Source: Rhizobium leguminosarum (GTDB lineage: Bacteria > Pseudomonadota > Alphaproteobacteria > Rhizobiales > Rhizobiaceae). From it: 64,000 bases of DNA. Location: positions 1,488,001-1,552,000 of the forward strand of contig NZ_CP016286.1 in assembly GCF_001679785.1 (NCBI RefSeq), in the 5' to 3' direction. Made by a program: the position numbers and the translations under genes. The notes beneath the pieces are model-generated. The model was not told the origin of the DNA. It ran no database searches and saw only the letters and a list, made by a program, of their open reading frames with translations. Below, piece after piece: positions 527-21,621 of the stretch (the first letter of the stretch is position 1; the number at the start of each line of letters is the position of its first letter).

Positions 527-527
527 T

Positions 528-5426: not shown

Positions 5427-5774
5427 GTCGAAAATCCAAATGCATCGAGATCAATGGTGCGTAGGCAGCTTGACGAAGTCAACGTTTGCCTTTGCATCGG
5501 CAATTTTGAGCTCTGTATTAGATGCAGATACCCAAATCAGAGAGTAAAATAAGGTCGTGTGCTATCGCCATCACAGCGGGCGAAAGACTTCCGCCGATGC
5601 TTGGTGAAAGGGGGTGCCCATGGCTAATCCGGCCACCGCAGTTCAAGTGAGCAATTCCTTGATGAGCGGACGATCTTAAGCGCTGACGCCAGAAGGCTTG
5701 GCGGAGAAATAGTCGTTTGCGTCTGAACGCCGATCGACACAGTATTGAAGCTACCTAAGCAGAGCGCCTGACAG
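5427..5774. other. Intergenic gap, no supported gene
   Basis: This is 348 bp between the DUF5983-like gene and the next plus-strand gene. Short open stretches exist on the minus strand (one reads AIAHDLILLSDLG) but none has a start with a ribosome site. I see no convincing terminator or repeat. It presumably holds the promoter of the gene at 5775. Confidence 0.4.
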
Positions 5775-6284
5775 ATGGATTGCACTGACCCCCAAAATTG
5801 CACTTACACCGAGAAGGAAAAGGAGCACTGGTCGAAACCGATACGGGCACAAGCATTGGAGTTGGCAATATCTGCCGTTAGCGAGGCTTGGGCGATCCTT
5901 GATGTAGAATTACAAAAAGACGGCTTCGACGACCGAATTCCGCCGTTTGAAGGCGGCTCGCGCTACGCTTACTATTGCGATCTGGATACTCAAACACTTG
6001 AGGATTCGGATTCCGTCTACTTCAACTCGCCGGACAGAAAACGGAAAATCGACGACCGGGATCTACGATATTTCGAGACTTGCTTTAAGGTCCACGACTA
6101 TTTTTCTCCTCGCATTCGTGCGTTGGCTTTCAGGACTTTGGCCAAAGACCTTGTGAGCGTGGCTTCTGTCAAGCGCGAGGAGGATCTGCAGGATGCCCTG
6201 AGCCGGATTGCCTTGAACAGTGACGGCTCAGTCAATGTATTTTTCACCTACGAAAATTACCGTCCATATTTTCCCTTGGATTGA
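5775..6284 (+). CDS. Hypothetical protein, 169 aa
   Basis: A complete 169-aa reading frame starting at ATG 5775. The product is soluble and acidic, with two cysteines near the N-terminus (DCTDPQNCTY), a helical segment around residues 25-50 (AQALELAISAVSEAWAILD), and an aromatic C-terminal tail ending YRPYFPLD. It has no signal peptide or transmembrane segment. I do not recognise the family. Codon use and the uninterrupted length make it a likely real gene. It is convergent with the next gene. In this island context it could be an immunity or accessory protein, but nothing in the sequence shows that. Confidence 0.65.
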   Translation: MDCTDPQNCTYTEKEKEHWSKPIRAQALELAISAVSEAWAILDVELQKDGFDDRIPPFEGGSRYAYYCDLDTQTLEDSDSVYFNSPDRKRKIDDRDLRYFETCFKVHDYFSPRIRALAFRTLAKDLVSVASVKREEDLQDALSRIALNSDGSVNVFFTYENYRPYFPLD

Positions 6285-6341
6285 TTGAAACCTGGAGGGC
6301 GCTCAACTCGATCATCGCTGAAAATCCGCAATGCGACTGTC

Positions 6342-6953
6342 TCAGTGCCGTGCCCCCTCCCCGCCCTTCATCTCTTCTGAGATAGACCAATGTAGCTCTA
6401 GTGGGAGAGCATCAGAAACTGCGAGCACCTCAATATTCGGCGAGAGTATTAGCGGATATTCCGCCTTTTCAAAACCATCCAATTCGAACCATTCATCCGC
6501 CATTTCCCAGTGAACAGGGGGGCGCTCCTCTGTGATCTGGGAAAGAAAAGCCTTCGCCTCGGTCTCTGTCTCGAACTTCATGATCCCGACGGTCCTAACC
6601 TCGAGATCCGCCCAATAGAATGATCCTGTCTTGCTTCGGAACTGACTTGATGAGCGCGGAAGCACTTTGGACTTCGAAGCGTCGGACGACGACCACATCA
6701 ATTGTTCGACGTCATCGATATTTATGGTTTTACAGGTGTCGTCCTGTGCAGGTCCTCGGATTTCCATAGCCGTTGCAAAGCTGATCTCAGGAAGTGCGGG
6801 CGTTCCGAACGAAGCGTCGGAAAACCAACGGCCGTCCCGAGCATCGATGGATTTCGAAAGAATCTGCTCCAGCTTTCCCTGCGCCTCGGTCAAGGAGTCA
6901 GCCTGGATATAGACTGTTGCGGCCATTTGCAGGCCAACCGAGAAGTATCGCAT
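6342..6953 (-). CDS. Hypothetical protein, paralogue of the gene at 8073
   Basis: About 203 aa when started at the ATG at 6953 (MRYFSVGLQ). That start is preferred because it aligns with the start of the small protein at 8073 (MPFFNLVRA). An upstream ATG at 7007 would add 18 residues. The N-terminal 60 residues share with that protein the pattern of an Asp/Glu-Ser-x-x-x-Ala helix, then an ID...G.W.S...F pair, then P.I. The C-terminal half (KFETETEAKAFLSQI, a Trp-rich WEMADEWFELDGF) has no counterpart there. No domain of known function is recognised. The protein appears cytoplasmic. Confidence 0.6.
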   Translation of the reverse strand: MRYFSVGLQMAATVYIQADSLTEAQGKLEQILSKSIDARDGRWFSDASFGTPALPEISFATAMEIRGPAQDDTCKTINIDDVEQLMWSSSDASKSKVLPRSSSQFRSKTGSFYWADLEVRTVGIMKFETETEAKAFLSQITEERPPVHWEMADEWFELDGFEKAEYPLILSPNIEVLAVSDALPLELHWSISEEMKGGEGARH

Positions 6954-7199
6954 ATGAAAACTCAGTTGCACTATCGAAAGGGTCATTCGAAAACCAGACA
7001 CTGTCAATCTTCCCTGATCGTCGCCATTGAAGCGGGACCAGATGATCTCGCGAAAACCTAGCTTCCGTTCACGGATTGGATCCCACTATCAATTGCGGAG
7101 CGAAGGAAACAACCTAGCCTCTTCGGAACACGCGCATTCCGATTGACTTCCATGGGCCGATTGTTCAACTACAACTCGTGTTTTGGTTGAGGGGCTCAA

Positions 7200-7700
7200 A
7201 TGCGATTCGTGGGAAATATCATCTGGTTTGTCTTCGGGGGCGCTGTACTTTCCCTCATGTGGTTACTCGGAGCCATACTCTTCGCGTTAACGATCGTGGG
7301 CTTGCCGCTTTCGCGTGGAGCTATTGAGATGGCCAAGCTGTCAGCGTTTCCTTTTGGCAAGGAAGTCGTTCACGTTCGTGAGCTGGACGGGAAAGGCGTC
7401 ACTGCCGTGACCGCGCTGACTGGAACGATTGGTTTCGTCGTAAATGTCATCTGGGCCTGCACCTTCGGTATCGGCTTGTTCGTCGGTCACTTGGTTGCTG
7501 GCGTGATCAACTGCATTTTCATCATCACCATCCCGTTCGGACTTCAATCATTCAAGCTCGCCGGTCTCAGCTTCTGGCCAGTCGGCCGCCGGGTGGTATC
7601 CGTCGAGATGGCGCGGATCGCGCGAGAGCACAACGCCCAGGAAAAGTTCAACAAGATCCGTGCAAAGAGTGGCGCCACAAGCGTTGTGGCCGCAAAATGA
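7200..7700 (+). CDS. yccF: YccF-domain inner membrane protein
   Basis: A 166-aa protein with two copies of the YccF (DUF307) motif. The first, near residue 5, is NIIWFVFGGAVLSLMWLLGA with the glycine/proline turn VGLPLSRGA. The second, around 80-110, is VNVIWACTFGIGLF with the matching TIPFGLQSFKLAGLSFWPVG. Two to four hydrophobic helices place it in the cytoplasmic membrane. The function of YccF proteins is not established. The stop overlaps the start of the next gene by 4 bp (ATGA), indicating an operon with the small exported protein. Confidence 0.85.
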   Translation: MRFVGNIIWFVFGGAVLSLMWLLGAILFALTIVGLPLSRGAIEMAKLSAFPFGKEVVHVRELDGKGVTAVTALTGTIGFVVNVIWACTFGIGLFVGHLVAGVINCIFIITIPFGLQSFKLAGLSFWPVGRRVVSVEMARIAREHNAQEKFNKIRAKSGATSVVAAK

Positions 7701-8050
7701 GCCGGTCTCTGCCGCTCGAAAACAATATGAAGTGGGGCCTCGTTTTTGGCGCAGTGCTTGCCTTCAGCGGTGCGGCGCACGCGGACTCCATTCCACGCTA
7801 CGATCCCCCAAGCTACTGTTCTAAGGTATCAGAGGTGAGTGGCGGATCGCGCACCATCTACAACGGGTGCCTTTCGATGGAACAGGAAGCCTACGATACG
7901 CTCAAGTCGTCGTGGAGTCAGATCGCAGAAAGCGCGAAGCGCTACTGTGACGAGGTCGCGCGATCGAGTGACTCCTCGTACAGCATCCTCAAGGGTTGCA
8001 TCGACATGGAAGCGAAAGCATCGTCTTCGGAGCCGGAGTTCAGGTATTGA
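7697..8050 (+). CDS. Small exported protein with duplicated Cys motif
   Basis: 117 aa, starting inside the stop of the yccF-like gene (ATGA overlap). A second ATG at 7727 gives a cleaner signal peptide (MKWGLVFGAVLAFSGAAHA, cleavage after AHA), so the mature periplasmic part is about 88 aa. The mature region contains two related halves: YCSKVSEVSGGSRTIYNGCL-SMEQEA and YCDEVARSSDSSYSILKGCI-DMEAKA. Each half has Cys-x14-to-16-Gly-Cys and then M-E-x-x-A. The four cysteines probably form one disulfide per half. No function is known to me. Co-transcription with yccF suggests an envelope role. Confidence 0.75.
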   Translation: MSRSLPLENNMKWGLVFGAVLAFSGAAHADSIPRYDPPSYCSKVSEVSGGSRTIYNGCLSMEQEAYDTLKSSWSQIAESAKRYCDEVARSSDSSYSILKGCIDMEAKASSSEPEFRY

Positions 8051-8072
8051 ACAGGAGCTTACGATCTTTCAC

Positions 8073-8333
8073 ATGCCATTCTTCAACCTCGTTAGGGCCC
8101 GAATGTTGATCGACGCCGAATCCAGGGACCATGCCCTGGAAAAATTCTTATCCGCACACAAATCGGGCATTGACCCAACTGGCCTCTGGATCAGCGAAGA
8201 TATGTTTAGTCCGGATGACTTCCCGAATATCGACCTTGTCGCCGATGAAACACTGAGATCTGTGAAGGTCAAGGCAGTCATTCGCGAGGGGAGGTGTCAT
8301 TGTCAATTCCGTGGATTTGCCGTGCATGGCTAA
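8073..8333 (+). CDS. Small hypothetical protein, paralogue of 6342-6953
   Basis: 86 aa starting at ATG 8073 with AGGAG about 18 bases upstream, 22 bp after the preceding gene. It reads MPFFNLVRARMLIDAESRDH at the N-terminus, followed by LWISEDMFSPDDFPNIDL. This parallels the minus-strand protein at 6342-6953 (SLTEA..., WFSDASF..., LPEISFA). It ends with a short basic/Cys stretch (GRCHCQFRGFAVHG). The two look like divergent members of one unnamed family of small cytoplasmic proteins. The similarity is judged by eye. Confidence 0.6.
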   Translation: MPFFNLVRARMLIDAESRDHALEKFLSAHKSGIDPTGLWISEDMFSPDDFPNIDLVADETLRSVKVKAVIREGRCHCQFRGFAVHG

Positions 8334-8432
8334 GGACACCCAGGGTTAGTCAGGCACAACCTCCTGACCGTACGGCGCCCACCGGCCGCCTGGCAAAAGC
8401 CCGCCTTCGAGTTCGACTGCTATCCCCGACTG

Positions 8433-8861
8433 TTACGCAAATCGCTCAAGCATTTTACGGAGTAGCTCGTTTTCGGAGAGCAGCGACTTCCGGTAGGCAG
8501 CCTCTTGCGCATTTCCTTGGACGAGCGCGTTGCCTTCGTCCTGTGCGCGAGCGACCACCCTCGCATGTGGAAGCGATGCATTCCGCCGGATCCTAGCCGT
8601 TCCGACCACCTTAGGTGGACCTGGCTTCGACAATTTAATTTGCTTACGCGGTATGCTAGTGGTTCCGGTTACGACGACCGAATTTGCTTCGCTCGTTGAC
8701 GAAGGCTCAGCGGGCGGGCTGTCGGCCGGGATGACTGTCACCGTCTCCCTTTCCATTGACGCCCTTCCTGCGTCCACAATGCGCTCGTCCAGCTGTCGTA
8801 TCCAATCTTGGTATTTCTCACGCCAGGGACTGCCTTCGGGGTGCGAAGCTAACTTTGTCAC
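8433..8861 (-). CDS. Hypothetical protein divergent from tnsA module; 5' side cut by IS3
   Basis: 142 aa if it starts at GTG 8861. Residues 1-35 are helical (SPWREKYQDWIRQLDERIVD), the middle is a Ser/Pro/Thr-rich linker, and the C-terminus is a leucine-zipper-like helix (YRKSLLSENELLRKMLERFA). The IS3 element is inserted one base upstream of the GTG. In the restored pre-insertion sequence a GGAGG lies 3 bases before that GTG, a close but possible ribosome site, and the insertion removed it. It is transcribed away from tnsA and may belong to the Tn7-like element. The function is unknown. Confidence 0.45.
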   Translation of the reverse strand: MTKLASHPEGSPWREKYQDWIRQLDERIVDAGRASMERETVTVIPADSPPAEPSSTSEANSVVVTGTTSIPRKQIKLSKPGPPKVVGTARIRRNASLPHARVVARAQDEGNALVQGNAQEAAYRKSLLSENELLRKMLERFA

Positions 8862-8899
8862 GGCCAAACTGGCCTGCTGCCGGTTTATCGGACACGAGG

Positions 8900-9760
8900 T
8901 TAAGCTAATCCCACCTTTGTTTCAAAGTCATTGGGGCTGAGATAGCCCAGTGTCGAGTGGCGACGCTTCGGGTTGTAGAAGCGCTCGATGTAATCGAACA
9001 CATCGGCTCTGGCGTCATTCCTCGTGCGATAAACCTTCCGTGCCGTTCTCTCCGTTTTCAGTGAGGAGAAGAAGCTCTCCATTGCAGCGTTGTCCCAGAC
9101 ATTTCCAGAGCGGCTCATCGAGCAGGTGATGCCGTGATCTCCCATGAGGCGCTGGAACTGCTCGCTGGTATATTGGCTGCCCTGGTCGGAGTGATGCAGC
9201 AGAGCATCTGGTTTTCCTCGACGCCATATCGCCATGATCAGCGCATCTGTGACGAGTTGGGCTGTCATGTTGGCATTCATCGACCAGCCGACGACACGGC
9301 GTGAGAACAGGTCGATGACGGCTGCGACATACAGCCAGCCTTCCGCGGTCCAGATATAGGTGAAGTCAGCCACCCATTTCTGGTTCGGACGGTCTGCCAC
9401 GAACTGGCGGTCCAGCACGTTAGGCATGATGACGGCACGGTCACCGGCATCCTTTGGCAAGCCACGCCGCCTCGGTCTTGCCCTGAGCGCATTCAAGCGC
9501 ATCAGCCGCTCAATACGATGGAGGCCACAGGATAACCCTTCCTCCAGCACATCGTGCCAGACCCGTCGGGCACCATAGGTGCGGTCGCTGGACTGGAAAC
9601 TCTGCTTGATCCTTTCCAGCAGGACCTCGTCATGGCGTGCATGTTCGCTCGGAGAACGATTGAACCAGGCGTGGAAACCTGAACGAGAAACTCCCAGCGC
9701 TTCACAGAGCCATGCCACCGGCCAGATCGAGCGGTGCTTTGCAACGAACGCGAACTTCAT
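8900..9760 (-). CDS. IS3-family transposase OrfB
   Basis: 286 aa with the IS3 OrfB layout. An N-terminal HTH_21-like region (CEALGVSRSGFHAWFNR) is followed by the rve integrase core. The DDE residues are visible in KWVADFTYIWT, LLHHSDQGSQYTSE and NAAMESFFSSLKTE, and the core ends with the usual YNPKRRHSTLGYLSP tail. Its ATG overlaps the stop of orfA (ATGA). In this family OrfB is normally made as an OrfAB fusion by -1 frameshifting. Nothing is disrupted. Confidence 0.95.
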   Translation of the reverse strand: MKFAFVAKHRSIWPVAWLCEALGVSRSGFHAWFNRSPSEHARHDEVLLERIKQSFQSSDRTYGARRVWHDVLEEGLSCGLHRIERLMRLNALRARPRRRGLPKDAGDRAVIMPNVLDRQFVADRPNQKWVADFTYIWTAEGWLYVAAVIDLFSRRVVGWSMNANMTAQLVTDALIMAIWRRGKPDALLHHSDQGSQYTSEQFQRLMGDHGITCSMSRSGNVWDNAAMESFFSSLKTERTARKVYRTRNDARADVFDYIERFYNPKRRHSTLGYLSPNDFETKVGLA

Positions 9761-10047
9761 ATCGCGTCCCTGGCAAAGTAGGCTGCGGCCTTTTTTAGGA
9801 TATCGCGCTCTGCCTTCAGCTTTGCGACTTCACGACGGAGCCGCTCGATCTCAAGCTGCTCCGGCTTCATTTGCCCTTTTCCAGGAAAGGATTGGCCGGG
9901 ATCGTCGCCGTATTCCCGAACCCATTTGCGCAACACATTCTCGTGGACATCAAGATCACGGGCAGCCTGCGCAACGGCAACCCCACGCTCCCTGACCAGC
10001 TTCACCGCCTCAAGCTTGTACTCGCGGCTGAATATTCGTCTTTGCAT
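9757..10047 (-). CDS. IS3-family OrfA (HTH protein)
   Basis: 96 aa. An N-terminal helix-turn-helix (FSREYKLEAVKLVRERGV, then AQAARDLDVHENVLRKWVRE) is followed by a C-terminal leucine zipper (LEIERLRREVAKLKAERDIL). That is the usual OrfA build for binding the terminal repeats and dimerising with OrfAB. It lies directly upstream of orfB in the minus direction with a 4-bp overlap. An A-rich stretch near the end (AAAAAAGG-like on the minus strand, around 9790) is where a -1 slip would be expected. Confidence 0.93.
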   Translation of the reverse strand: MQRRIFSREYKLEAVKLVRERGVAVAQAARDLDVHENVLRKWVREYGDDPGQSFPGKGQMKPEQLEIERLRREVAKLKAERDILKKAAAYFARDAI

Positions 10048-10151
10048 TCATGCTCTCCGGTTTCAGGAGGAACACCTTAACCTCGTGTCCATGAAACCGG
10101 CAGCAGGCCAGTTTGCCCTCCAAACAATCCAGTTTGTTATGGAGGCCGAGC

Positions 10152-10406
10152 ATGTCCAACTACCACCCCACGCCTGAATCGTCTGCAAATCCCAATGATT
10201 GGACGCCTTCGTTCAAGGCGTTCACAGAGCTGTTCTTCGGGCGCTCGTTCGAGCCTCTGGGCTACGATGCGCCCACCTCCAACAATGTGGTCATCTCCCT
10301 TGCCGAAGCCGCCACCAAGGCGGTTGTCGACGAATATCACGTACCTGACGGCCCCGACGCCGACCCGCCCTTCCCTGATCGTCCGGTCATAACCGTCCAT
10401 CGCTGA
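10152..10406 (+). CDS. Small hypothetical protein upstream of tnsA
   Basis: 84 aa starting at ATG 10152, preceded by GGAGG at 10141 with a 6-base spacer, a good ribosome site. The sequence is polar, with a Pro/Asn/Ser-rich start (NYHPTPESSANPNDWTPSF), a central amphipathic helix (SLAEAATKAVVDEYHV) and an acidic Pro-rich end. It has no similarity that I recognise. It lies 63 bp upstream of tnsA on the same strand, so it is probably the first gene of the transposition operon. It might be a small accessory or regulatory protein of the element, but this rests on position only. Confidence 0.5.
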   Translation: MSNYHPTPESSANPNDWTPSFKAFTELFFGRSFEPLGYDAPTSNNVVISLAEAATKAVVDEYHVPDGPDADPPFPDRPVITVHR

Positions 10407-10469
10407 TTTCAGCGAACCAATCACCCCATCTTTATTGATTGGTGGCACAGCCGTGTCCGGAACAGGAAT

Positions 10470-11351
10470 GTGATGACTACCAAGCGGGTTCTTCGCTACA
10501 TGATCGAATGCGAGCACGGCATCGACAATTACGTCGATGACGAGCCGACAGCATATGACCCTCTCGGGGATTACGCACCTGCAGGTGAGTTCGTAACCGT
10601 TCGCTTCTATGACGACGGTGGGGTCGCGCACGATGCCAAGCTTTGGACAGGGCATAAGGCTTCCACCGGGACGCGACAGCCACCAAAGCGTACGAAAGCG
10701 CACGCTCGCGGTTACATCGTAGACCCCCGGACCAATCGCGCCATCGGCTTCAGCAGCACCTACGAACTGACTTGTATCCTTTTTCTGATGGCAAGCAGTG
10801 CGGTTGTCGAGATCGAGGACCAGCCACCCGCAGTCACATATTTTGATGCCGACGGCAAGAAGCGCAAGCACATCTATGACCTTCGAGCGAGCCTGAAGAA
10901 CGGCCTTAAGATCGTTTACCCGATCAAGCCCGTCGACCAGCTCGAGAAGACCAAAATCAAAGAAGTTGTCGAGCGCACCAAGCCCCATTTGGACGGGTTC
11001 GCTGACAAGGTTGTCCTCCTCACTGATCGTACTTTGACGCGCGATGTCGCTTGGAACAGCAAGAGCATCGTACATGCTCATAAAGTTCGCGATGAGGCCG
11101 ACTGCCAGTACATGCTCGACCTCGTAAGAGACATCCGGGGTGAGTTCAGCGCCTACAAGGTTGCCCGGACCTTCAAGCGTTTTGCCGATGGTTTCAATGC
11201 CATTTTGTGCCTGCTCTATGACGGTGTTCTCGAACTCGTCCAGCCACTGCGTATTTCGGAAGAACGGGACAGTCGTTTCACTAAATCGCGGACAGTGGTT
11301 TCACTAATTCCGGGACAGCATGGTGTGGTCGATTTTCGCCTGCCTGGTTGA
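10470..11351 (+). pseudogene. tnsA: tnsA-like endonuclease gene, 3' end replaced by IS21 insertion
   Basis: This encodes the TnsA-like endonuclease of a Tn7-like transposon, which cuts the 5' ends so that the element moves by cut-and-paste. The restriction-enzyme fold residues are recognisable: Glu99 (SSTYELTCILFL), Asp137 (KHIYDLRASLKNG) and Lys153 (YPIKPVDQ), with DQPPAVTYFDADG between. Start is GTG 10470 or, better, ATG 10473 after CAGGA. The authentic frame ends at 11247, where IS21 is inserted. The last 34 codons to 11351 are IS21 sequence. Without the IS the gene would continue at 13880 and stop at 13932 (276 aa). Only 17 native C-terminal residues are lost, so activity may persist. Confidence 0.82.
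11251..11318. repeat. IS21 left-end sub-repeats (23-bp period)
   Basis: Three successive units end in CGGGACAG, GCGGACAG and CGGGACAG, at 11272, 11295 and 11318. The second and third share GTTTCACTAA. They match the four inverted units at the other end (13780-13870). In IS21 elements such internal repeats bind IstA. Confidence 0.85.
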
Positions 11352-11353
11352 AG

Positions 11354-12130
11354 TCATGAGCGATTGATTTCGCCGTTTTCAGCGCCGGTCAAGTGGGATG
11401 GTGTTTTTTGCCGTCGCATGCTGTCGCCTTCAAGGGCAATGCGGTGCGCATTGTGGATGATCCGATCGAGGATTGCGTCTGCGATGGTCGGTTCTCCGAT
11501 CATGTCATGCCACTGGGCGACAGGAAGCTGCGCGGTGATGAGCGTTGATTTCCGGCGATAGCGTTCCTCGAAGATTTCCAGCAGGTCGAGGCGTTGTTGA
11601 TCTGTGAGCGTGTGCGTTCCCCAGTCGTCGAGGATCAGCAACTGGACGCGGGCGAGTTTGTCGACCAGGCGTGGAAAGCGGCCGTCAAGCCTGGCAAGGC
11701 CCAGATCTTCGAACAGACGCGGCATACGCAGGTAGAGGATGGAATGATCGAGCCGGGCAGCCTGACGGCCGAAGGCGCAGGCGAGCCAGGTTTTTCCCGT
11801 GCCGGTCTGGCCGGTGATGATCATATTCTCATGTGCCTTCAACCACGCCCCTTGCGCAAGCGACAGAGTGTTGCGGCGGTCGAGACCACGATGAGCGGCA
11901 AAGTCGATGTTCTCGATGCAGGCGTCGGGAAAGCGGAGCTTTGAAGCTGCAAGCCGGTTGGTCAGGCGCTTGTCGGATCGCAGAGCCGTTTCCCGATCGA
12001 GCATCAGGCCGAGCCACTCGTCGCGGCTGAGATCGCTGCTGTTGTTCTGAGCGGCAAGTTCGCGATAGGCCGTTGCCATTCCGGCAAGGCCAAGGGCCTG
12101 CATCTGATCGAGGGTTGGATGTGTCAGCAT
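11354..12130 (-). CDS. istB: IS21 helper ATPase IstB
   Basis: 258 aa from ATG 12130 ([19 protein letters not shown], the standard IstB start). A longer upstream frame exists but overlaps istA and is not family-like. This is a DnaC-type AAA+ ATPase that stimulates IstA and helps target choice. The Walker A motif is [17 protein letters not shown], Walker B is LLILDDWG, and the family ending with [18 protein letters not shown] is present. It follows istA with a 16-bp gap in the same operon. Length and motifs are complete. Confidence 0.95.
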
Positions 12131-12146
12131 GGGTCTTTCCTTTCCT

Positions 12147-13700
12147 TCACTGGTAATAGGAGCCGCCGCGGATGTTGGTGTGCGGCGGGGTGGGTTTTGC
12201 CGGGTCTGTCTGGGGTTTGGTTCGATCGAGACCGGATTTGAGAATGGCGGCGACAGAGGAATAGGTGATGGAGTTGATGACCAGCGCCCGCTCGCACGCC
12301 GCTTCCAGGCGATCCGTCTCGTAACGGCGGGCAAGGGACAGAATGCCGAAGGCCGAGCGATATCCTTGTTCGGGATGAGGACGATCGCGCATCATCCGCT
12401 CGACCAGAATGGCGGTGTTCACCCCGATCCTTGCCGCCTGGTTCAAAAGCGATGCCGGCGTCGTGTTGGCATAACGCTGGTGGGATTTGGGCATATGCTC
12501 GTTGACCGTCACATGCCCGGATCGCTGAGAACGCCTGATATGGCTGGCAATCCGCTTGTGATCGAGAAATACCTCGACCACCCGGTGGGTCAGACGCACA
12601 TCAACCTGTCGGCCGATCAAGCGGTGCGGCACAGAGTAGAAGGTCTTGTCGACCTCGACATGGTAATCGGGATGGACCTTCGCCGATTTCCATTCCGCAT
12701 AGTCGAACGGCGTTGCTGGCAGCGGCGCAAGCGCCTTTCTCTCTACCTCCTCGAACAGGTCTCGGCGCGACTTTCCGATGTGGCGCATCGGGCGGTTGTT
12801 CAAGTCGTCAAGCAGAACCGAGATCGCGGCATTCAGATCAGCCAGACTGAAGAAGCGTCGGTTTCTGAGGCGAGCCAATATCCAGCGCTCGACGATCAGC
12901 ACTGCACCTTCGACCTTGGCTTTGTCACGCGGCTTGCGGCTTCTGGTCGGCAGGATGGTCGTATCGTAATGTTCGGCCATAGCAGCGAAGGTGGCGTTGA
13001 GCGTCGGCTCGAACCACAGCGCCTTGGCGACGCCTGCCTTCAGGTTGTCGCACACGATCGCCTTCGTGACGCCGCCGAAGAAGCTCAGCGCGCGTTCCTG
13101 GCCCTCGATCCAGTCCGGCAGTTTCTGGCTGAAGCTGGCACAGGCGAATGTCAACGACGAGGCGGGAAGCATCGCCACAAAGATTTGTGCCGAATGGATG
13201 ACGCCGGTCGAAGGGTCGATGATGGGGATGGTGTGGCCGGCATAATCCGTCTGCATCACCGCGCCCGCCTCATGACGGTTGCGGAACGTCGCGTGAGCGC
13301 GGCGTTCGAAGACGGCAAAACGGTCGCAAAACCATGTGTAGCCGTAGCCGTCGGGATGGCTCGCCCTGTATTCCTGCCAGAGCAGCGTCAGCGTTACACC
13401 CTTGCGCTTCAGCTCGGCGGAAACGGACCGCCAATCCGGCTCGACCAAGTCCTGTGGCGGCCGGCCAACGCGCCGGAAAAGATGTCGCTCCAGCGCGGCA
13501 TCATCGTCCAGGCCCGCAGGCAACGGCCAGACCGAAAGTCCGGTCTCCCTCGCTCGCAACAGATACGTCGCCACAGAGGTTTTGCTGATCTTCAGGCGTT
13601 CCGAAACGGCGCGAACCGAAAGGCCCTGCTCGTGCGTCAGTCGCAGTATCGATCGAATGTCTTTCACTGTCGTTCGTCTCGCTTGCTTCCGTCTTGGCAT
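12147..13700 (-). CDS. istA: IS21-family transposase IstA
   Basis: 517 aa from ATG 13700, which has a GAGAGGGG ribosome site (an ATG ten codons upstream is also in frame). The N-terminal HTH domain ([32 protein letters not shown]) binds the terminal repeats. The DDE core includes [21 protein letters not shown] and the glutamate in [19 protein letters not shown]-terminal IstA domain ([19 protein letters not shown]) follows. No disruption is seen. It is co-directional with istB and antisense to tnsA. Confidence 0.95.
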
Positions 13701-13779
13701 GGCCCCTCTCAACCGATGATGAGGAGGCAATCTGCCAGAACGGCGCTTGCGAAAATCGACCTTAAATCCACGTCCGAGA

Positions 13780-13870
13780 CTGTCCCGGAATTAGCGGAAT
13801 CGCTGTCCCGTATTTACTGAAATCGCTGTCCGCGAATTACCGGAATCGCTGTCCCGAAATTAGTGAAACA
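13780..13870. repeat. IS21 right-end sub-repeats (four units, 23-bp period)
   Basis: Units begin CTGTCC at 13780, 13803, 13826 and 13849, exactly 23 bp apart, each followed by a variant of CGGAATTACCGGAATCG. They are the inverse of the left-end units and presumably form the IstA binding array. The promoter of istA must lie inside or beside them. Confidence 0.88.
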
Positions 13871-13879
13871 CGCAGCCAC

Positions 13880-13932
13880 ACCGCAAACTAATCGACGCGC
13901 CGTATGTGCGCGTCCGGCAGGAAGAGGAGTGA
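13880..13932 (+). pseudogene. tnsA: Displaced 3' end of tnsA
   Basis: These are the last 17 codons of the uninterrupted tnsA (HRKLIDAPYVRVRQEEE then TGA at 13930-13932, the first codon being shared with base 11247). They are now separated from the rest by the IS21 element. The acidic tail ends the protein in the expected place, about 276 aa from the GTG. In Tn7 the TnsA C-terminus contacts TnsC, so loss of this tail might weaken coupling. That last point is inference from Tn7. Confidence 0.8.
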
Positions 13933-14103
13933 GCCCGGTGCGTCAAGTCTCATGCTTGTTGCCGCATCATCTTCGCGCTGGTGCAATCGCCGCCCGCGCC
14001 CCACCTTAAGCGGCCAGCACCTCTCCACTCACATACGCGCGAATTAGCGCCCGTCGACAGCCGTGAGGCTGATCGGAAACGCTTGCCTAAAAGGAACAGT
14101 ACA

Positions 14104-14292
14104 ATGACCGACACACTTTACAACGAGCTGCTCGGGAAACATTCCGGTGATCTGACCGCCCTTGGTACTCGCCAGCGCGTAGAGGTCGACGAGTACGCCT
14201 GCGATCTTGCAACATTTTTCTACGCGAGTGGTACGTGGACATTTCCAGAGAGCACGGACGAGGTCCTTAGCGACAGCTCAAACCTGTCTTAA
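14104..14292 (+). CDS. Small hypothetical protein between tnsA and tnsB
   Basis: 62 aa from ATG 14104, with AAAAGGA about 9 bases upstream. The sequence (MTDTLYNELLGKHSGDL..., VDEYACDLATFFYASGTW) is acidic, with one Cys and an aromatic cluster, and ends with a Ser/Asp-rich tail. I recognise no family. It is co-directional with the Tn7-like genes and lies in the gap between restored tnsA (stop 13932) and tnsB (start 14549). It may be an element-specific accessory gene or a small regulator. The evidence is a good ribosome site and position. Confidence 0.5.
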   Translation: MTDTLYNELLGKHSGDLTALGTRQRVEVDEYACDLATFFYASGTWTFPESTDEVLSDSSNLS

Positions 14293-14548
14293 ACCGCGCT
14301 CCTCGCTAGGTCTCAACCCACAATGACCATCGTTCATCGATCCACGGGTTTGAATTCGGAGGCTGCCGTCTTGGTAACGATCTTCCGCACTCGCAGCATT
14401 TGCCGGTCCTTGGGAATCTGGCCAGCTGCTCCGCCGTAGCACGGCCGCTCACCTCTTCTGCAGACCAGGGCTCTCAGTAGGTCTTGGCTAAATCGGCCCG
14501 AAAGGCCGCGTGAGAATTCTTGCGCCGTTTTAAAAGGAGTTAAGCAAA

Positions 14549-16858
14549 ATGGCTGCTGCACTGAACGCCTACCGCTACCGCGAAGAGAACCAATTCGAAT
14601 ACCGCATCTATTCCTTCTACAAAGGCGACCGCGTCGAAGATCGCGACATCATGTACGAGTGGCAGCGCTCCGCTCAGGATGGTCATTGGTTCCTGCGCGT
14701 CGGCGATCCCGGTCCCGAGGAGTTCTTCTCACATATCGATTTGCACAAGGGATTCCATCGCCCAAAAAACCCGATGGGTTACATCCCGCGTCGCCGCCCT
14801 CAGCATGGCCATTTTGCTTCGACCGACATCTCAAGCCTGCTCAGTCCCCTCAAGCCCGATGAGCAGAAGCACATCCTCTTCTGCGTAGATTGGTGCAAGC
14901 GCTTCGCAAACGCCTACGAACGCGGCGAGGTAAAGCGTACCAAAGCAGATGCGGCACGTTGGGCTATCGAACAGCACGCGCTGATCGTCGCGGCGGCGGA
15001 GAAGCTGCATGAGGATGAAGGCCGAAAACGCCAGACCATGGAAACCATTCCCGCTGCGCCCAAGGGAGGAACACTTCTCGACTGGGTAACGCGCTACGAG
15101 CGTGCGGACTACGATCCCATCGTGTTCTACGACAACACCGGTAAGGGCCGGAGAGAGCATTTTACCGCACCCGAACTGGTGATTATCAATGAGCATGTCG
15201 CGATCAAGGCGTCGTCGGATCGGACAGCAATCACCGAACTCTATGAAATGCTGGAAGCGGCGTTCGATCGAGAGAACGACGTAATCAGGAAACAGAACAA
15301 GGCGTTAGGTGCAAAGGTTCATAAAGAACTTCGAGTTCCGAACATCGATACGTTTCGAGAGCGCTGCAATCAGATCCCAAGAGGACATCTCGAGTTAGCT
15401 TATCTGGGAAAAGAGGCAGCACGGAATAAGAATGCTGCCGTTCGGTTCGGAATCGACACCGATCGACCACTTGAGCGCATCGAACTTGACGAAAGCCAAG
15501 TCGACCTCATGACGATCATGATGCTGGCAGGGTTGTGGAACAAGCTCACGAAAGCAGAGAAAGATGTCGTTTCACGGGTCCGACTTTGGATCACAGCGGC
15601 TATCGACACCGCTACAAGAAGCCTGCTTGGGCTTCGCTTCCATCCAGAAGAGCCGAGCGCTTCGACGGCCGTTGCCACTCTGGGCATGGTCTTTCAAGAC
15701 AAGTCACAGCTCTCCGAGACCCTTGGTTGCGTAACCAGGTGGAAGCAGCAGGGCAATGCAGAGGAAGTGGTCATCGACTCCGCCACTTGGCTGGCGAGCA
15801 TGGCAATGCGCGTAGCGGTGCTTGACGCCGGTGCATGCTTCTTCCAGCCGAAAGCGGGCGACCCTCGCTCGAAAGGTACGATCGAACGGTGGTTCCGCAC
15901 CATCAACCGGGATGCGCTCGCAACCTTTGCCGGACGTACGTGGGGCAGTCCAGATGAGATGGGCGACCTTACTGCGTCAGAGCAGGCCAGCATCGCGTAT
16001 GATCAGTACGCGGAACTCATGTATCGCTTCCTGATCGATGTCTACCACAACACTGCGCACTACGGGCTTCAGGGGGAAACGCCGCTTGCAGCCTGGGAGC
16101 GCCTGAACAAGTTTTACAAGCCTACGCCGCCCATGTCTCAGAACATTCATCGCCACATTTTTGGCGTTAAGGGCACCCGCAAGCTCACGAACGCTGGAAT
16201 TCGGTTCCTTGGCATCCAGTATTGGTCCAAGGCTCTCCATCACCTCTTCCTGAAGAAGGATATCGATGTCGAAATCCGAGTAGGCATTTCAGACCTCGGG
16301 ATGATCTCCGTCCAACATGAGCAGGGCTGGTTGAACGTGCCAGCCCTGCATCAGGAATTCGCGGGCATGAGTGTTTGGAAGTGGATGGCGTTCAACAAAC
16401 GTCTTCGCATCCTGAACCAGAGGACGGCAAAGGTTCACCGTTCGGTTGCCCTCAGGGCCAAGGAATATCTTCGAAATCAAGCTGAGATCGCTCGCGCTGA
16501 AGCGCAGCTCGGAACAGCGGTCGTTAACGACGACGACTTTAAGCGCTGGGAAAAGAGCCTCGCTCACACGGTCGAGATCATCGATGACGAAGAGGAAGAA
16601 GTGCCTGTACTGCACGATGAGTCGAACCTGATCGACCTCTACAGCGACATGTATGCTGGAATGCTGCTGGCCCGCGAGGAGGCCAAGGCGCAAAAGCGGG
16701 CGGCAGAACACGCCAAGACGTCTAAGCGGGGCAATAGCGACCGCTCGAAGCGTCCGTCGGCGAGCGTGGAGGCAGCGCCTGCTACCGATCGCTCCTCATC
16801 ATCGCTTGACCCCGCACCGGCCATCGCCCCCAGCACCTCCAGCCGCTTCGATCGCTAG
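14549..16858 (+). CDS. tnsB: TnsB-like DDE transposase
   Basis: 769 aa with start ATG 14549 after AAAAGGAGTTAAGCAAA, a strong ribosome site. It belongs to the TnsB/MuA/TniA group that joins the 3' ends of the transposon. The rve core carries Asp314 (LDESQVDLM), Asp410 (VIDSATWLAS) and Glu446 (SKGTIERWFRTINRD), a DD35E spacing. N-terminal DNA-binding helices occupy about 1-280. A Mu-type beta-barrel domain follows the core (DIDVEIRVGISDLGMISV). The C-terminal 100 residues are acidic, then basic and Ser-rich (EEEEVPVL..., KRGNSDRSKRPSAS), like tails that contact the AAA+ partner. The frame is intact. Confidence 0.9.
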   Translation: MAAALNAYRYREENQFEYRIYSFYKGDRVEDRDIMYEWQRSAQDGHWFLRVGDPGPEEFFSHIDLHKGFHRPKNPMGYIPRRRPQHGHFASTDISSLLSPLKPDEQKHILFCVDWCKRFANAYERGEVKRTKADAARWAIEQHALIVAAAEKLHEDEGRKRQTMETIPAAPKGGTLLDWVTRYERADYDPIVFYDNTGKGRREHFTAPELVIINEHVAIKASSDRTAITELYEMLEAAFDRENDVIRKQNKALGAKVHKELRVPNIDTFRERCNQIPRGHLELAYLGKEAARNKNAAVRFGIDTDRPLERIELDESQVDLMTIMMLAGLWNKLTKAEKDVVSRVRLWITAAIDTATRSLLGLRFHPEEPSASTAVATLGMVFQDKSQLSETLGCVTRWKQQGNAEEVVIDSATWLASMAMRVAVLDAGACFFQPKAGDPRSKGTIERWFRTINRDALATFAGRTWGSPDEMGDLTASEQASIAYDQYAELMYRFLIDVYHNTAHYGLQGETPLAAWERLNKFYKPTPPMSQNIHRHIFGVKGTRKLTNAGIRFLGIQYWSKALHHLFLKKDIDVEIRVGISDLGMISVQHEQGWLNVPALHQEFAGMSVWKWMAFNKRLRILNQRTAKVHRSVALRAKEYLRNQAEIARAEAQLGTAVVNDDDFKRWEKSLAHTVEIIDDEEEEVPVLHDESNLIDLYSDMYAGMLLAREEAKAQKRAAEHAKTSKRGNSDRSKRPSASVEAAPATDRSSSSLDPAPAIAPSTSSRFDR

Positions 16859-16918
16859 CCATGCCGCGCCCGGAAGACCGGGCTCGGCATCCCTTGTTTT
16901 CAAAAAGAGGTATCGTTT

Positions 16919-17980
16919 ATGACCACTGCAACGACCATGATTAGCCCCTCCATCGCCCGCATTCGCGCACTGCAACCTGCGCATCGTCTCCTGAAGGCGG
17001 ATCGTATCGCACATATGAACGGTCGATATATCGGTCTAAAGCGCGACGAAAGCCTTGCATATGATCTCGATGCCCAGGAAACCAGCATTGCTGTTTCCGA
17101 AATTGGGAAGTTTTCCCGTCCTGACAAGCGCCGGATCATCGCGGTGTTGGGCGAATCCGGCGCGGGCAAAACGACCGCCTTGTTCGAGCACATCAACCAG
17201 CGTCCCGCGATGCTGCCCTACGTTGACGACGACGGTAACGAGTTCGATCCCGTTCTCTCGTTTACCAACCCCTCGCCAAACACTCCGTTGCTTTTCGCAT
17301 TGGAGGGTCTCCACGCACTCAAGTTTCCGATCCGCAAGAAACTGCAAGAAAACGAGGCCTGGCAGGTTTTCCGTGATGCCTTGAAAGCACGGCGGGTTCA
17401 TTGGGTCTTCGTCGACGAAGCGCAGCACGCCATCGACACCGCCAATGTGATCGAGATCACCAAGATCGCAAATGCTTTTAAGAACCTCGTGCAGATGCCC
17501 GACTGGCCGGTGCGCCTGATTTTGGCGGGCGTAGAGCCCCTTGGTTCTTTCCTCACGATAAAGCAGCTCACCAATCGCCATACCGTCGTTCACTTCGAAA
17601 AGATGAAAGACGCCGTCGGCATTGCCACCATCCAGCACGCTGCCAAGACGATCATTACCGAGCATGCCTCCCTTAAAACCGCGCTGCATAATGATCCGGA
17701 ATTCATCCACCGCCTGGCGCATGCTGGCGAGCACGATTTTGGAACGGTCACCCAGATCATTCGCGCGGCAACTGAAATTGCGATCTGGGACGACGACGTC
17801 GTCGTGACCGACGAGCACTTCAAGAAGGCGTACAGCCATTTTTCGGGCTGCGGTCCACTCGATAACATCTTCTCTGTGGCACACTGGAGCGAAATCACCC
17901 CACGGCTGGCCAAACTTCGTGAGGCGGACCGCCTCTGGCAGAAAGAGCATCCCCGTCATGCAAAGGTACTCGGCCTGTGA
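16919..17980 (+). CDS. tnsC: TnsC-like AAA+ transposition ATPase
   Basis: 353 aa of the TnsC/TniB type, which links the target selector (TniQ) to the TnsA-TnsB transposase. Walker A is VLGESGAGKTTALFEH near residue 77 and Walker B is WVFVDEAQHAID near 163. A sensor-1-like segment (VRLILAGVEPLG) and arginine-bearing helices (IIRAATEIAIWDDDVVV) follow. AAAGAGG lies 11 bases before the ATG at 16919. It starts 60 bp after tnsB and overlaps tniQ by 4 bp, so the three form one operon. Length is close to other small TnsC/TniB proteins. Confidence 0.9.
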   Translation: MTTATTMISPSIARIRALQPAHRLLKADRIAHMNGRYIGLKRDESLAYDLDAQETSIAVSEIGKFSRPDKRRIIAVLGESGAGKTTALFEHINQRPAMLPYVDDDGNEFDPVLSFTNPSPNTPLLFALEGLHALKFPIRKKLQENEAWQVFRDALKARRVHWVFVDEAQHAIDTANVIEITKIANAFKNLVQMPDWPVRLILAGVEPLGSFLTIKQLTNRHTVVHFEKMKDAVGIATIQHAAKTIITEHASLKTALHNDPEFIHRLAHAGEHDFGTVTQIIRAATEIAIWDDDVVVTDEHFKKAYSHFSGCGPLDNIFSVAHWSEITPRLAKLREADRLWQKEHPRHAKVLGL

Positions 17981-18870
17981 GTACCATCCGACCAGTAGTG
18001 AAATTCAATCCGGGAGAAACAGTCGGGAGTTTCTGCTCGCGGTTGGCGGCGGCGTACGGGTTGAGGTCGGCATCCTACTTTGCTGAGCTTTTTGAATTTA
18101 GTTTCTGGGGCCTGCTCAATGGCGGGCCCCGGGACATGCAAATTTTCGCCGAGATCACAGGTGTCCCTACGACACGTCTGGATGTCGGGGTCGCTTCGGT
18201 CGGACGCGATGTCATGATCAATGGGCACCGCTTCGCGAGGCGGTTCGTGGATCCCCTCCGCTGCAGACTTTGTCCCCGATGTGTGATCGACGGGATGGGA
18301 CCGCAGCACAACCCCACTCGCTCTTATGCGAAGGTGGAATGGGCGCTCAAGTCGATGCGCTGCTGCCCCATTCATGATCGCGAACTGATGACCTTCAAGG
18401 GGCGGACATGGCAAGACAGCGCAGATTTCGCCTGGGTCGTACGCGAGAACCTTAAGCTGATCGAACGCTCCACATCCCAGCTCCGGTCGTCACCATTCGA
18501 ACCGTACGTGTCGCTGCGCCTCAACGAGGATCTTGTTTCCGACGCGTGGCTCGACGCGCTCCCACTGCAAACAGCGATCCACTTTACAGAAACGCTGGGT
18601 GCGGTAATGCGGCATGGAAGCGAACCTGATCTGGAAACACTGACATCGTCGGAATGGGTGGATGCGGGTCGTGAGGGGATCGCAGTCACCAGCGCTGGGC
18701 TGGCAGCGGTCAAAGAGGTGCTCCACGAAATCGCTTCGCGTCCGATGCCGCGCGGAAGAAAATCGCTGACGATGGTATTCGGCAGACTGGCTGCCGAGGT
18801 CTTGGAGTTTGAAAACGATCCGGGCTATGTGGAGATTATCTCAGTGATGAGGGAATTCGCGCTAGGATAA
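17977..18870 (+). CDS. tniQ: TniQ/TnsD-family target-selection protein
   Basis: 297 aa beginning at GTG 17977 within the tnsC stop. The N-terminal TniQ signature is visible (PGETVGSFCSRLAAAYGLRS). A zinc-binding cluster CRLCPRCVID is followed 30-40 residues later by RCCPIHDREL, the usual CxxC...CxxH pair of TniQ. The C-terminal 120 residues are helical. It is shorter than Tn7 TnsD, so it may recognise a target through a partner rather than a long DNA-binding tail. No second TniQ, TnsE or CRISPR effector is seen in the window, so the target route is unknown. Confidence 0.85.
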   Translation: MSTIRPVVKFNPGETVGSFCSRLAAAYGLRSASYFAELFEFSFWGLLNGGPRDMQIFAEITGVPTTRLDVGVASVGRDVMINGHRFARRFVDPLRCRLCPRCVIDGMGPQHNPTRSYAKVEWALKSMRCCPIHDRELMTFKGRTWQDSADFAWVVRENLKLIERSTSQLRSSPFEPYVSLRLNEDLVSDAWLDALPLQTAIHFTETLGAVMRHGSEPDLETLTSSEWVDAGREGIAVTSAGLAAVKEVLHEIASRPMPRGRKSLTMVFGRLAAEVLEFENDPGYVEIISVMREFALG

Positions 18871-19333
18871 AGGCGTTGAGACGACCGGCAACGGCACCTC
18901 TGCATACCTTTCACTGCACGGGGACAGGTCGTGAAACCGCGCACTTAAACTAGCGCACGCGCTGGCCGCCGTTCGTTGATACTCAGTGCCATCCCTATTT
19001 TCCTGCAATGCAGCATTGGGATTTAACCGGTGGTACTCACAATCCGGCGGGGTGCGTGTCTGCCTGCCTTTGGCCAATCCGGCGGCGGCGTGGAAGCGTC
19101 TCTCGCCGCTTGCAACCCCAACAGAGAGCCAACTGCAAGCCCAGTGAAACTACAGTTGTGACAGCGTCCCAAACGTCCGTCCTACAGGCAGACTTGTTTC
19201 GCGCAACCTCCCCAGAGAGCGGGTGCGCCGATTTGGAAGAATTTGAATTCGAGCAACCTGATCTCGGGCGTCCAGATTTGGCTCTTCCCGCCGACAAGAA
19301 GGCGGACCCAGGTCTACCACCCTCCGTTCCATC
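18871..19333. other. Gap between tniQ and minus-strand cargo pair, no supported gene
   Basis: 463 bp between convergent transcription units. Minus-strand open frames here (one of 86 codons starting with TTG at 19297, containing VWDAVTTVVSLGLQLALCWG) lack ribosome sites and I do not call them. No clear hairpin terminator is visible. The short hydrophobic frame could be a decayed third member of the membrane-protein pair upstream. Confidence 0.35.
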
Positions 19334-19711
19334 CTACGCTTTGTAGCGAGAGCGACCTTCGTTTTTACGAAGCCAGGACGAGAACCACCTGACGCGCTTT
19401 GCGCTCTGCAACGATGGGCGGTCCGTGTCCTTGGCAATCGGATTTGACACAACGGTCTCTTGAGCGCCAGTCGCTGTGCAAAACAGGAGACATCCGTTGA
19501 AAACCGCCAGGACGCCGTCCCAAATCCCATGCAAAATGCCCGCATTAACAGCGCCCGCGAAAGCCACGATCAAGGAAACCGCCGCAGGCACCCACACGGA
19601 CTGAACCCCCAGGACCCTTCTGACTGTGTTCGTGACAACAATTATTATTAAAGAGGCGGTCGCAACCGACGCAAGCGAATCCGATGTGAAAAAAGTTGTT
19701 GCTGAAGCCAT
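19334..19711 (-). CDS. Small membrane protein coupled to protease gene
   Basis: 125 aa. Its ATG (19711-19709) shares one base with the TAA of the protease gene (TAATG), a strong sign of translational coupling. Three hydrophobic segments are visible at about residues 13-32 (VATASLIIIVVTN), 39-58 (VWVPAAVSLIVAFAGAV) and 62-80 (WDGVLAVFNGCLLFC). A basic, Ser/Arg-rich cytoplasmic tail follows. No family is recognised. The stoichiometric pairing with a membrane-anchored protease suggests a partner, substrate, inhibitor or effector pore. The sequence does not say which. Confidence 0.65.
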   Translation of the reverse strand: MASATTFFTSDSLASVATASLIIIVVTNTVRRVLGVQSVWVPAAVSLIVAFAGAVNAGILHGIWDGVLAVFNGCLLFCTATGAQETVVSNPIAKDTDRPSLQSAKRVRWFSSWLRKNEGRSRYKA

Positions 19712-21057
19712 TATCGATCCTCGAATGGAATTACATTGCTAATGCGTTCACTTGGATTTATCGCTGCCAAGCGGTCGTTCAGAAATTCAAACAACGGTTC
19801 CGCCAGGATTACGTAACTGAAGCGCTCAGTGCCGCCGTGGATCAGCCCAAGAAAGCTATTCTTCCCGCCAAGGCCCGCGACCACCCAGGAACCGGAGTCG
19901 CCCTTCTTGGAAAAGCCTTTCGACGTCCGAGGATAAACAAAGAGGCCGAGAATGCGCCTCCTTCGAACCGCGACCGTACACGCTGGAAAACTGTAAAGCG
20001 TGCCATCAATCGTATATTCGGAAACCCGGTTTTCGACGTAACCTTCAACGGGAGACGCTCCGCCGAGTCTGGTCACATATCGACCCTCAGCGTAGAGATC
20101 AGATAGAAACGATTGCTCGACAATGGGCAAAGCCGATCCGAAGTGACCCGCAAAACACCCGTCATGCATATTTATCAATGTCGCGTCCGGAATGTCGGCT
20201 CCGGGGCTCAACGTGGGAAAGATGTCGTGATCGCAGCGGGGCAAAACGTGCTTGCAGGTTAGCGCGTACAATAAATCGGAAACGGTTTTGACACCTCCCG
20301 CAATCGTCCCCATCTCCTCCGGCGTATCGCGGCACGCACGATGAAGCGTTGCGGGAGAATAGGCGCCGAACTCAACGCCAATCCCCAACCATTCTTTCAG
20401 CCTCAGCAGATGACCTTCGATAAGCTCGCGATGTGGCGTGGCAATGGTGACAACCCAATCAAGGTATCCCTGACGTCTTTCCCAGAATGACAACTTTCTT
20501 AAGGACAAACTGTATTCGAGACTTGTCTCTCCTGATCGGGTCGCAAATTCAGATAGCGTCTGCAACGCATCGCCTGCTCGGCCGAACAGTACGGTCTCTC
20601 TTTCTTTCTGATAGCGAAGTCGGATTTCTTGGGCCGACGCCTCGGCGTTTGAGAGCCGCCTTGGTCCCTCGGGTGTTTCGAAAAGCGGTGGTGTTTCCCG
20701 GATCTTGATCTGGCGGTCGGTCAAGAGACTGCGTTCAATGAAGGAGCGGCGGCCGGACTCGGCCGCCAGGGCATCTGCGATTGAAGCCAGAAATAGACCG
20801 CTTGATCTTGAACGAAGCAGCACAATGGCCGACGAAACAAGCGTCAACAGTAGGCTGGGGATTGACGCGAGGAAGAAGGCAAGCTGACCGATTGCCGCGA
20901 AAAAGTAATACAGCCCGATAAATGGCACCACGATGATCCGAAGGATTGCCGTGAGGAGTTGGCCGAGCTGAAACATGATGTAATTACGTCGTTTAAAAAA
21001 TCGAAAATTTAAAATCCGGATCCGGCGAATCAGGACCCAAATGAATGACTTACGCAT
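19711..21057 (-). CDS. Membrane-anchored trypsin-like serine protease
   Basis: 448 aa. Two N-terminal hydrophobic segments (about residues 28-50 and 55-80: LLTAILRIIVVPFIGLYYFF, LASIPSLLLTLVSSAIVLL) anchor it in the membrane. A helical linker of about 150 residues leads to a chymotrypsin-fold domain. The triad is recognisable as His270 in LTCKHVLPR, Asp291 in PDATLINMHD and Ser388 in KGDSGSWVV. Start at 21057 or ATG 20976 is uncertain because no ribosome site is obvious. It is co-transcribed with a small membrane protein and lies next to tniQ on the opposite strand, the position of cargo in Tn7-like elements. I do not know a described family with this architecture. Confidence 0.75.
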   Translation of the reverse strand: MRKSFIWVLIRRIRILNFRFFKRRNYIMFQLGQLLTAILRIIVVPFIGLYYFFAAIGQLAFFLASIPSLLLTLVSSAIVLLRSRSSGLFLASIADALAAESGRRSFIERSLLTDRQIKIRETPPLFETPEGPRRLSNAEASAQEIRLRYQKERETVLFGRAGDALQTLSEFATRSGETSLEYSLSLRKLSFWERRQGYLDWVVTIATPHRELIEGHLLRLKEWLGIGVEFGAYSPATLHRACRDTPEEMGTIAGGVKTVSDLLYALTCKHVLPRCDHDIFPTLSPGADIPDATLINMHDGCFAGHFGSALPIVEQSFLSDLYAEGRYVTRLGGASPVEGYVENRVSEYTIDGTLYSFPACTVAVRRRRILGLFVYPRTSKGFSKKGDSGSWVVAGLGGKNSFLGLIHGGTERFSYVILAEPLFEFLNDRLAAINPSERISNVIPFEDR

Positions 21058-21621
21058 GAATAAACGGCCGACTGCATTAAACCAAGGGTGGAATGAATAT
21101 TTGCTGCTGTCTAGCCGAAAGCCGTGCGATCAAGTTGGAACCACCAGCCCCGCCAGCTTTTATCAGTTCCACTTCTCGATCAATGGCCTCCAACCCGGCA
21201 ACCGGGACGGGGCGGTTTGAAATGGTTTTTCTTCAAAACCAGGAAAATGTCGATCAAGAAATGGTCGTGGAATCAAATCCGGCGCCAGACCCGGTTTGAT
21301 CCGGCAGATCGTTCCTATCGAAATGGCAAAACCCACCTTTTCTGGGATTCTAATCCGATCTTTCCGCCGGTTTTACAAATGACATACCTTCGTCATTCAT
21401 CTCATAATCCGCTCTTTTAAAGTCGCCCCGCTCGAATTTGCGCCTGGACGATCCAGCATATCGACGAGTTCGCCTGCGGACGTGCCTCGTTGAGCGGCTG
21501 GGTGCCAGCCAACAGATTCTTTTTAAAACCCGTGTCTCGGACGACGCGCGCTTGACGACAATGTCCGGGTCAGACTGTTGAGACGGGATTCGATTGAAAC
21601 CCCGCCGTGGGCTCGCCGTTG
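21058..21621. other. Non-coding gap with short repeated words; possible transposon end
   Basis: 564 bp between two minus-strand genes. The word CGATCAA occurs at 21127, 21177 and 21251, and GAAATGG at 21219, 21258 and 21320. An imperfect palindrome ATCAAATCCGG/CCGGTTTGAT spans 21272-21300. The part to about 21420 is less GC-rich than the flanks. Repeated short sites of this type could be TnsB binding sites near an end of the Tn7-like element, but I could not match them to a copy at the other side. No gene with a ribosome site is seen. Confidence 0.35.

Follow-up and report, generated by a model that had tools for sequence, protein, structure and literature searches.

Organization of the tns locus

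The stretch analysed here (the window) covers 64,000 bp of Rhizobium leguminosarum contig NZ_CP016286.1 (C1; genome G000) and holds the larger part of what is probably a cut-and-paste Tn7-like transposon. As set out below, insertion of this transposon family is very probably directed to dif, a short site at which joined bacterial replicons, chromosomes or plasmids, are taken apart. The question of how the target is chosen is thus largely answered, and the element can be described as a dif hunter. The whole transposon occupies C1:1478757-1509377 (30,621 bp); its last 21,377 bp lie in the window (1..21377, plus strand) and its start lies 9.2 kb to the left.

Four transposition genes follow one another on the plus strand. 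The 5′ part of tnsA (10470..11247, 97% DNA identity to the Rhizobium sophorae locus L037) belongs to a TnsA-like open reading frame (ORF) at 10470-11351 that retains E99, D137 and K153, although its match to Pfam TnsA_N (E 6e-5, 23.9 bits) stays under the family cut-off of 26.5. The DDE transposase gene tnsB (14549..16858) encodes D314, D410 and E446, unchanged across 13 aligned TnsB sequences, and is followed by tnsC for a TniB-like AAA+ protein (16919..17980, TniB E 7.5e-10) and by a short-form tniQ of 297 amino acids (17977..18870, PF06527 E 3e-13), with an overlap of 4 bp between the last two genes. Between tnsA and tnsB, a 62-amino-acid ORF with no assigned function (14104..14292, plus strand) is kept in R. 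sophorae genome G359 (85%) and in genome G418, whose tns locus is L038 (55%). The window's TnsB is 98% identical to that of L037 and 85% to that of L038.

The tnsA gene is interrupted by an insertion sequence (IS) of the IS21 family (11248..13872, minus strand, 2,625 bp; istB ORF 11354-12334, istA ORF 12147-13730), flanked by the 7-bp duplication CAGCCAC at 11241-11247 and 13873-13879. Compared with L037, the insertion replaces the last ~17 tnsA codons, and a detached 3′ remnant matching the L037 TnsA tail survives at 13880..13932 (plus strand). Because of this interruption the window copy may be defective or damaged. The minus-oriented element is also possibly polar on tnsB-tniQ.

The original prediction of a TnsA-TnsB-TnsC-TniQ module with a single short TniQ is thereby borne out in its four genes and the TnsA residues; it overlooked the IS21-family element, and the segment 10152-10407 that it included does not belong to TnsA. 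Its limits of 10152-18870 were likewise too narrow for the transposon, whose right end lies at 21377 and whose left end and attachment site fall outside the window.

Transposon ends, empty sites and dif on the chromosome

The right end (21277..21377, plus strand, ...CGGTTTTACA) can be aligned with positions 14716-14817 of L038, and ATCCG-type repeats are visible in it by inspection, apart from any systematic survey. The left end, at C1:1478757, begins TGTAGAACCGG... and matches the right end in inverted orientation. Both ends are flanked by the 5-bp target-site duplication AATGA (21378..21382, plus strand; left copy C1:1478752-1478756), and the termini have the form TGT...ACA. Host chromosome follows (21383..23772, plus strand), is kept in relatives and carries a gene for an MscS-type channel on the minus strand (21622-23772).

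Just outside the left end, at C1:1478709-1478730, lies the 22-mer CGCATAAGATAGATTATGGAAC, separated from the transposon by 26 bp. It is the single match in the 8.57-Mb genome with up to two mismatches allowed, and its position at 1.479 Mb is almost opposite to hemE (4.036 Mb on the 5.035-Mb contig), which we take to be an origin marker. PMC10132070 describes dif as an XerC half, a six-base spacer and an XerD half, and includes Rhizobium sites with TTATGGAAC. Judged by its sequence, CGCATAAGATAGATTATGGAAC is such a site, having an XerC half, a 6-bp spacer, an XerD half and one chromosomal copy at the terminus. The earlier statements that there was no attachment site and that the targeting mode was unclear were right for the window alone, since the left end and dif lie ~9.2 kb outside it.

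The search for ends and empty sites, which had been proposed as a check, yielded both ends, the AATGA duplication and 13 empty loci. DNA to the right of the element gave matches in 148 of 148 Rhizobium genomes, many of them just other loci of ~70% identity. Among 29 relative loci compared, homology starts at 21373 in 13 and further in for the rest; the match to relatives over the last four or five bases ahead of 21378 reflects a chance likeness of the transposon end to host sequence. In all 13 empty-site relatives only a short stretch stands before this homology, preceded by CGCATAAGATAGATTATGGAAC or a one-base variant, with dif no more than 20 bp before the breakpoint.

Since dif lies outside the duplication, it is the target rather than cargo. 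A dif carried by the transposon as its own resolution site would account for the fact that dif adjoins one end in every measured copy, but we consider this highly improbable: the 5-bp duplication separates dif from the end, element-free relatives have dif at the same spot in the same flank, and both dif sequences and gaps vary among near-identical ends (G000 and G359; G145 and G263).

Recurrence beside dif in other genomes

At the cut-offs used, TnsB matches were obtained in 38 of 297 genomes of the family and 14 of 148 of the genus, and 16 tns loci were fetched. Related ends stand 25-36 bp from dif (median gap 29), with the XerD half facing the element, in 17 measured records, comprising the window chromosome, Rhizobiaceae genomes and plasmids of Rhizobium, Agrobacterium, Neorhizobium and Pararhizobium. 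A dif scan of 26 other genomes with TnsB relatives placed dif on the tns contig in two, G336 and G145, where dif and a TGTAAAA end are 31 and 26 bp apart, respectively, with the end on the same side and in the same orientation as in the window. The G336 copy, at another dif, has ends alike in 29 of 30 bases, the duplication GAATG and tns genes inside; that of G145, from another genus, contains tns genes (tnsB split) and a diverged right end with GCTGT. A third copy, in G175, combines an exact duplication (TCGTT), a gap of 33 bp and a piece of TniQ. The window's left end recurs in G359 with 32 of 32 bases at another dif, the left ends of G145 and G263 have 30 of 32 bases in common, and an end in G157, by eye of the G175 kind, lies 36 bp from dif, its right end not having been found. 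In the four copies that combine the two ends with tns or tniQ sequence (G000, G336, G145, G175), the genes occupy the dif-distal end. Exact 5-bp duplications flank eight copies: those four and the plasmid copies CP020900, CP076854, CP147998 and CP048524.

In two cases, CP121653 (L158, L185) and G175:C120, a further end was seen 28-60 kb past the dif-adjacent one, possibly marking tandem arrays formed by repeated insertion by dif.

The surroundings of dif might simply tolerate mobile DNA of any kind, and several of these sites do have IS30 and ISNCY transposases annotated on their XerC side. We regard such untargeted accumulation as very unlikely, given the 25-36 bp spacing and the constant side and orientation at many dif sites and replicons, the XerC side not having been searched genome-wide. 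The IS30 and/or ISNCY genes, found to the left of the element in L194, L195, L197, L198 and L199, suggest that mobile elements of different kinds are drawn to dif, each keeping to one side of it.

Plasmid survey with end DNA

For a survey not conditioned on dif, PLSDB was searched with left-end DNA of four types from which dif and the gap had been excluded. Matches at the end or within four bases of it numbered three for type I, five for type II, one for type III and four for type IV; a second type III record (H58) had an internal match only and was not examined, and three of the four S. medicae type IV records (H60-H62) were left out. Nine of the ten left-end records examined have dif, eight at 25-31 bp and the S. 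medicae copy, whose end has changed in its first bases, at ~32 bp. Searches with right-end DNA added three records, two of them with dif, bringing the total to 11 of 13 plasmid records examined. It should be noted that CP048524 and CP048575 represent one and the same insertion, and that CP115843 has its insertion at the corresponding dif, one base off.

Several of these copies are delimited on both sides. They measure 11,256 bp in Neorhizobium CP147998 (duplication CGTGA, dif 31 bp off at the far, left end), 2,181 bp in Rhizobium CP076854 (AATTC, dif 28 bp off at the far, left end), 11,424 bp in CP020900 (exact duplication ACTGG) and 2,292 bp in CP048524 (exact duplication CTTTC); in CP099401, four of five duplicated bases match. 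The only tns sequence in the fetched plasmid stretches is a tniQ fragment in CP099401; in CP121653 a remnant of tnsC/tniQ follows after another 60 kb. The short copies are probably mobilised in trans.

Two copies of 2.2-2.3 kb beside dif (L198:15001-17292 and L204:47621-49801) lack tns genes, have both ends and exact duplications of 5 bp, and are probable non-autonomous derivatives.

Evidence against dif targeting

Several observations weigh against a general link between these transposons and dif. The tns genes, a left end and dif occur together on one contig in just three of the 16 fetched tns loci. In G418 (L038), whose TnsB is 85% identical to the window's, the right end is not beside dif, and neither a left end nor dif was found across 82-222 kb of contig; a repeat search within L038 did not yield its left end either. 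No left end was found for CP118611, CP087975 or G157C3, the R. tropici right-end record has neither left end nor dif within 49.8 kb, and the G366 contig ends 9.5 kb above tnsA. In G359 the end beside dif and the tns genes are on different contigs, and for many dif-linked copies the DNA fetched holds no tns genes. Among the plasmids, CP149876 is the single miss in the left-end set: it lacks dif, and a Tn3-family gene stops ~140 bp before the end. (The operon of CP118611, from Ensifer adhaerens (L159), is a related one with two consecutive TniQ genes; its target was not found.)

Counts of the bare sequence pattern also carry little force. The arrangement dif, 15-40 bp, TGTANAA occurs in 5 of 394 family genomes, against 2 of 394 in a control with shifted distances, and in 8 of 148 genus genomes; with a slightly different pattern the order level gave 1 of 397, namely the window's own genome. 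As these counts alone are near our chance estimate of ~4-6, weight is placed on end similarity, duplications and genes. Moreover, the pattern that led to G359, G263, G175 and G157 covers the XerD side only. Five genus-level pattern matches (G333, G334, G372, G394 and G436), from genomes without TnsC and with ends unlike the four types by eye, were not included among the 17, while G263 and G175 were kept despite having no TnsC, for end similarity or duplication.

Taken at their strongest, the copies of G418 and R. tropici without visible dif might mean that the association is a one-off of the window copy. We give this almost no credence, as G336, G145, G175, CP121653 and the plasmid records contradict it.

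A TnsC tree of 16 rows places the dif-linked rows in two supported groups, one joining G000, G359 and G336 with G418, the other G145 with CP087975. The seven rows of a third group (G301, G289, G017, G320, G178, G407, G215) lack a true dif in the DNA fetched for them. The dif label requires three changes on the tree, and 129 of 500 shuffles were as low, so that it is not significantly clustered and a single origin of dif linkage is not supported. The sister clade of G301, G289 and G017 has related TnsA, TnsB (~32-33%), TnsC and TniQ, the last of 547-619 amino acids, and its fetched stretches hold no true dif and one weak match, in G289. Host DNA common to all three lies 11-15 kb beyond tniQ; a gene in it, by our own reading a putative thrS, marks a possible separate attachment region.

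A model of target selection

The sequences themselves show the ends, the duplications, the position of dif next to left ends on many replicons and the empty sites of relatives; that these particular Tns proteins carry out dif-side insertion is what we infer from them. In the proposed mechanism, TnsA and TnsB would cut and join the DNA, TnsC would regulate them, and the single TniQ would pick the target. The family very probably inserts 25-36 bp from dif on its XerD side, with the left end facing dif; each insertion duplicates 5 bp, and the dif site itself stays whole. Judged by eye, the sequence that separates dif from the transposon end is not alike among copies, and recognition should therefore rest on dif or on its binders.

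Two forms of recognition can be envisaged. TniQ could read dif DNA itself, at the XerD half-site, as TnsD reads glmS, with no need for Xer proteins. In keeping with this possibility, TTATGGAAC is present in 17 of 17 measured cases, partly by construction as it was used in the searches and in the gap measure, and the TniQ frame of G145 extends to ~500 amino acids, leaving room for a DNA-binding part of its own. We hold direct reading to be a tentative option, given that the TniQ proteins of the window, G359 and CP121653 have only 297-298 amino acids, and that those of G336, G145 and G175 are 23-37% identical to the window's and yet share its target. Faure 2023 (PMC10293859) moreover treats a small TniQ as the hallmark of an additional target selector. 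We favour recognition through a host partner, to which we assign about an even chance: the short TniQ would contact XerC/XerD bound at dif, their binding being predicted, and bring TnsC there, making the host recombinases the target selector.

Dedicated selectors were also considered. A 243-amino-acid ORF found upstream of tnsA in L037 and L038, with a weak relative in G336, was entertained as a second target selector and was not found in the window's element. No Cas domain was detected in the element ORFs scanned, a set from which some ORFs were missing and which involved no search for arrays. An AlphaFold model of TniQ (five sequences) was unusable (mean predicted local distance difference test score, pLDDT, 38). 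Assignment to a clade by PDB sequence searches was abandoned, the nearest entries, I-F3/PseTnsAB for TnsB and VchTnsC for TnsC, being too distant.

Cargo and other insertions

Downstream of tniQ, a cargo ORF of 448 amino acids (19711..21057, minus strand) has no Pfam match and no relative among the other fetched element regions; its GDSG motif suggests a serine protease. The transposon also contains an IS66-family transposase gene (1867..3474, plus strand) and, upstream of tnsA, an IS3-family element (8862..10118, minus strand) whose approximate limits derive from its inverted repeats. Its part to the left of the window includes an IetA/IetS-like defence pair (L083:13053-16671; PADLOC E 2e-69 and 8e-32) and a CHAT-domain gene. 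In L037, the DNA upstream of tnsA holds TIR, SLOG and MazG-type genes, and a PIN-domain gene that recurs near many tns operons of the family (L037:6171-6752 and relatives) was not found in the window's copy.

Implications

These observations would add dif to the attachment-site classes of Tn7-like elements and connect the targeting of transposons with the machinery for resolving dimers of chromosomes and plasmids. Because dif occurs both in the chromosome and in large plasmids (several predicted to be conjugative), the family would offer a single-TniQ answer to the two-pathway problem of Tn7. If XerC/XerD are indeed the selector, one rule would serve both the chromosome, as a safe home, and conjugative plasmids, as transport, as both carry dif; XerH-like selectors such as TnsF could then have arisen when an element captured a host partner of this kind. 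Transposases that insert at a fixed distance from dif and leave it undamaged could also be developed into a neutral landing-site tool for Rhizobiaceae.

Comparison with known systems

Tn7 has TGT...ACA ends, generates a 5-bp duplication and inserts beside a conserved site that is left intact. The present family shares these features with Tn7 and Tn7-like elements (TnsA-TnsB-TnsC-TniQ/TnsD), along with a separate TnsA, a DDE TnsB, TnsC and TniQ, and differs in having dif as its target, one TniQ, and tns genes at the target-distal end. The full-text literature searched, a scope outside which most subscription papers fall, contains no report of a dif-targeting Tn7-like element and no already described, target-assigned clade to which this family would belong, no phylogeny against named Tn7-like subfamilies having been made.

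Two other groups also hunt recombination sites. According to PMC11406308, elements of the Tn5053/Tn402 type have one TniQ and target recombination sites in replicons resident in the cell, Tn5053 choosing res sites of Tn3-family elements, lacking TnsA and using a site-specific recombinase for cointegrates. The window's element has TnsA and so stands outside that family. The dif hunters of the IS1202 family (ISAjo2 and others) likewise target dif or pdif in one orientation, with TGT...ACA ends and a 5-bp duplication, but are, according to PMC10132070, 1.5-kb IS elements with one transposase that insert 5 bp off the XerC side. The window's family, with TnsABC-TniQ and insertion 25-36 bp away on the XerD side, does not belong with them.

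No TnsF was identified in the window's element, where the sole sizeable nearby ORF is the opposite-strand 448-amino-acid cargo gene, its fold unexamined. A parallel for the short TniQ is found in Tn6022, which, according to PMC10293859, pairs such a protein with TnsF and targets comM, TnsF having an XerH-like tyrosine-recombinase fold and being predicted to be bridged by TniQ. In the present family the target is instead dif, a site bound by the tyrosine recombinases of the host itself.

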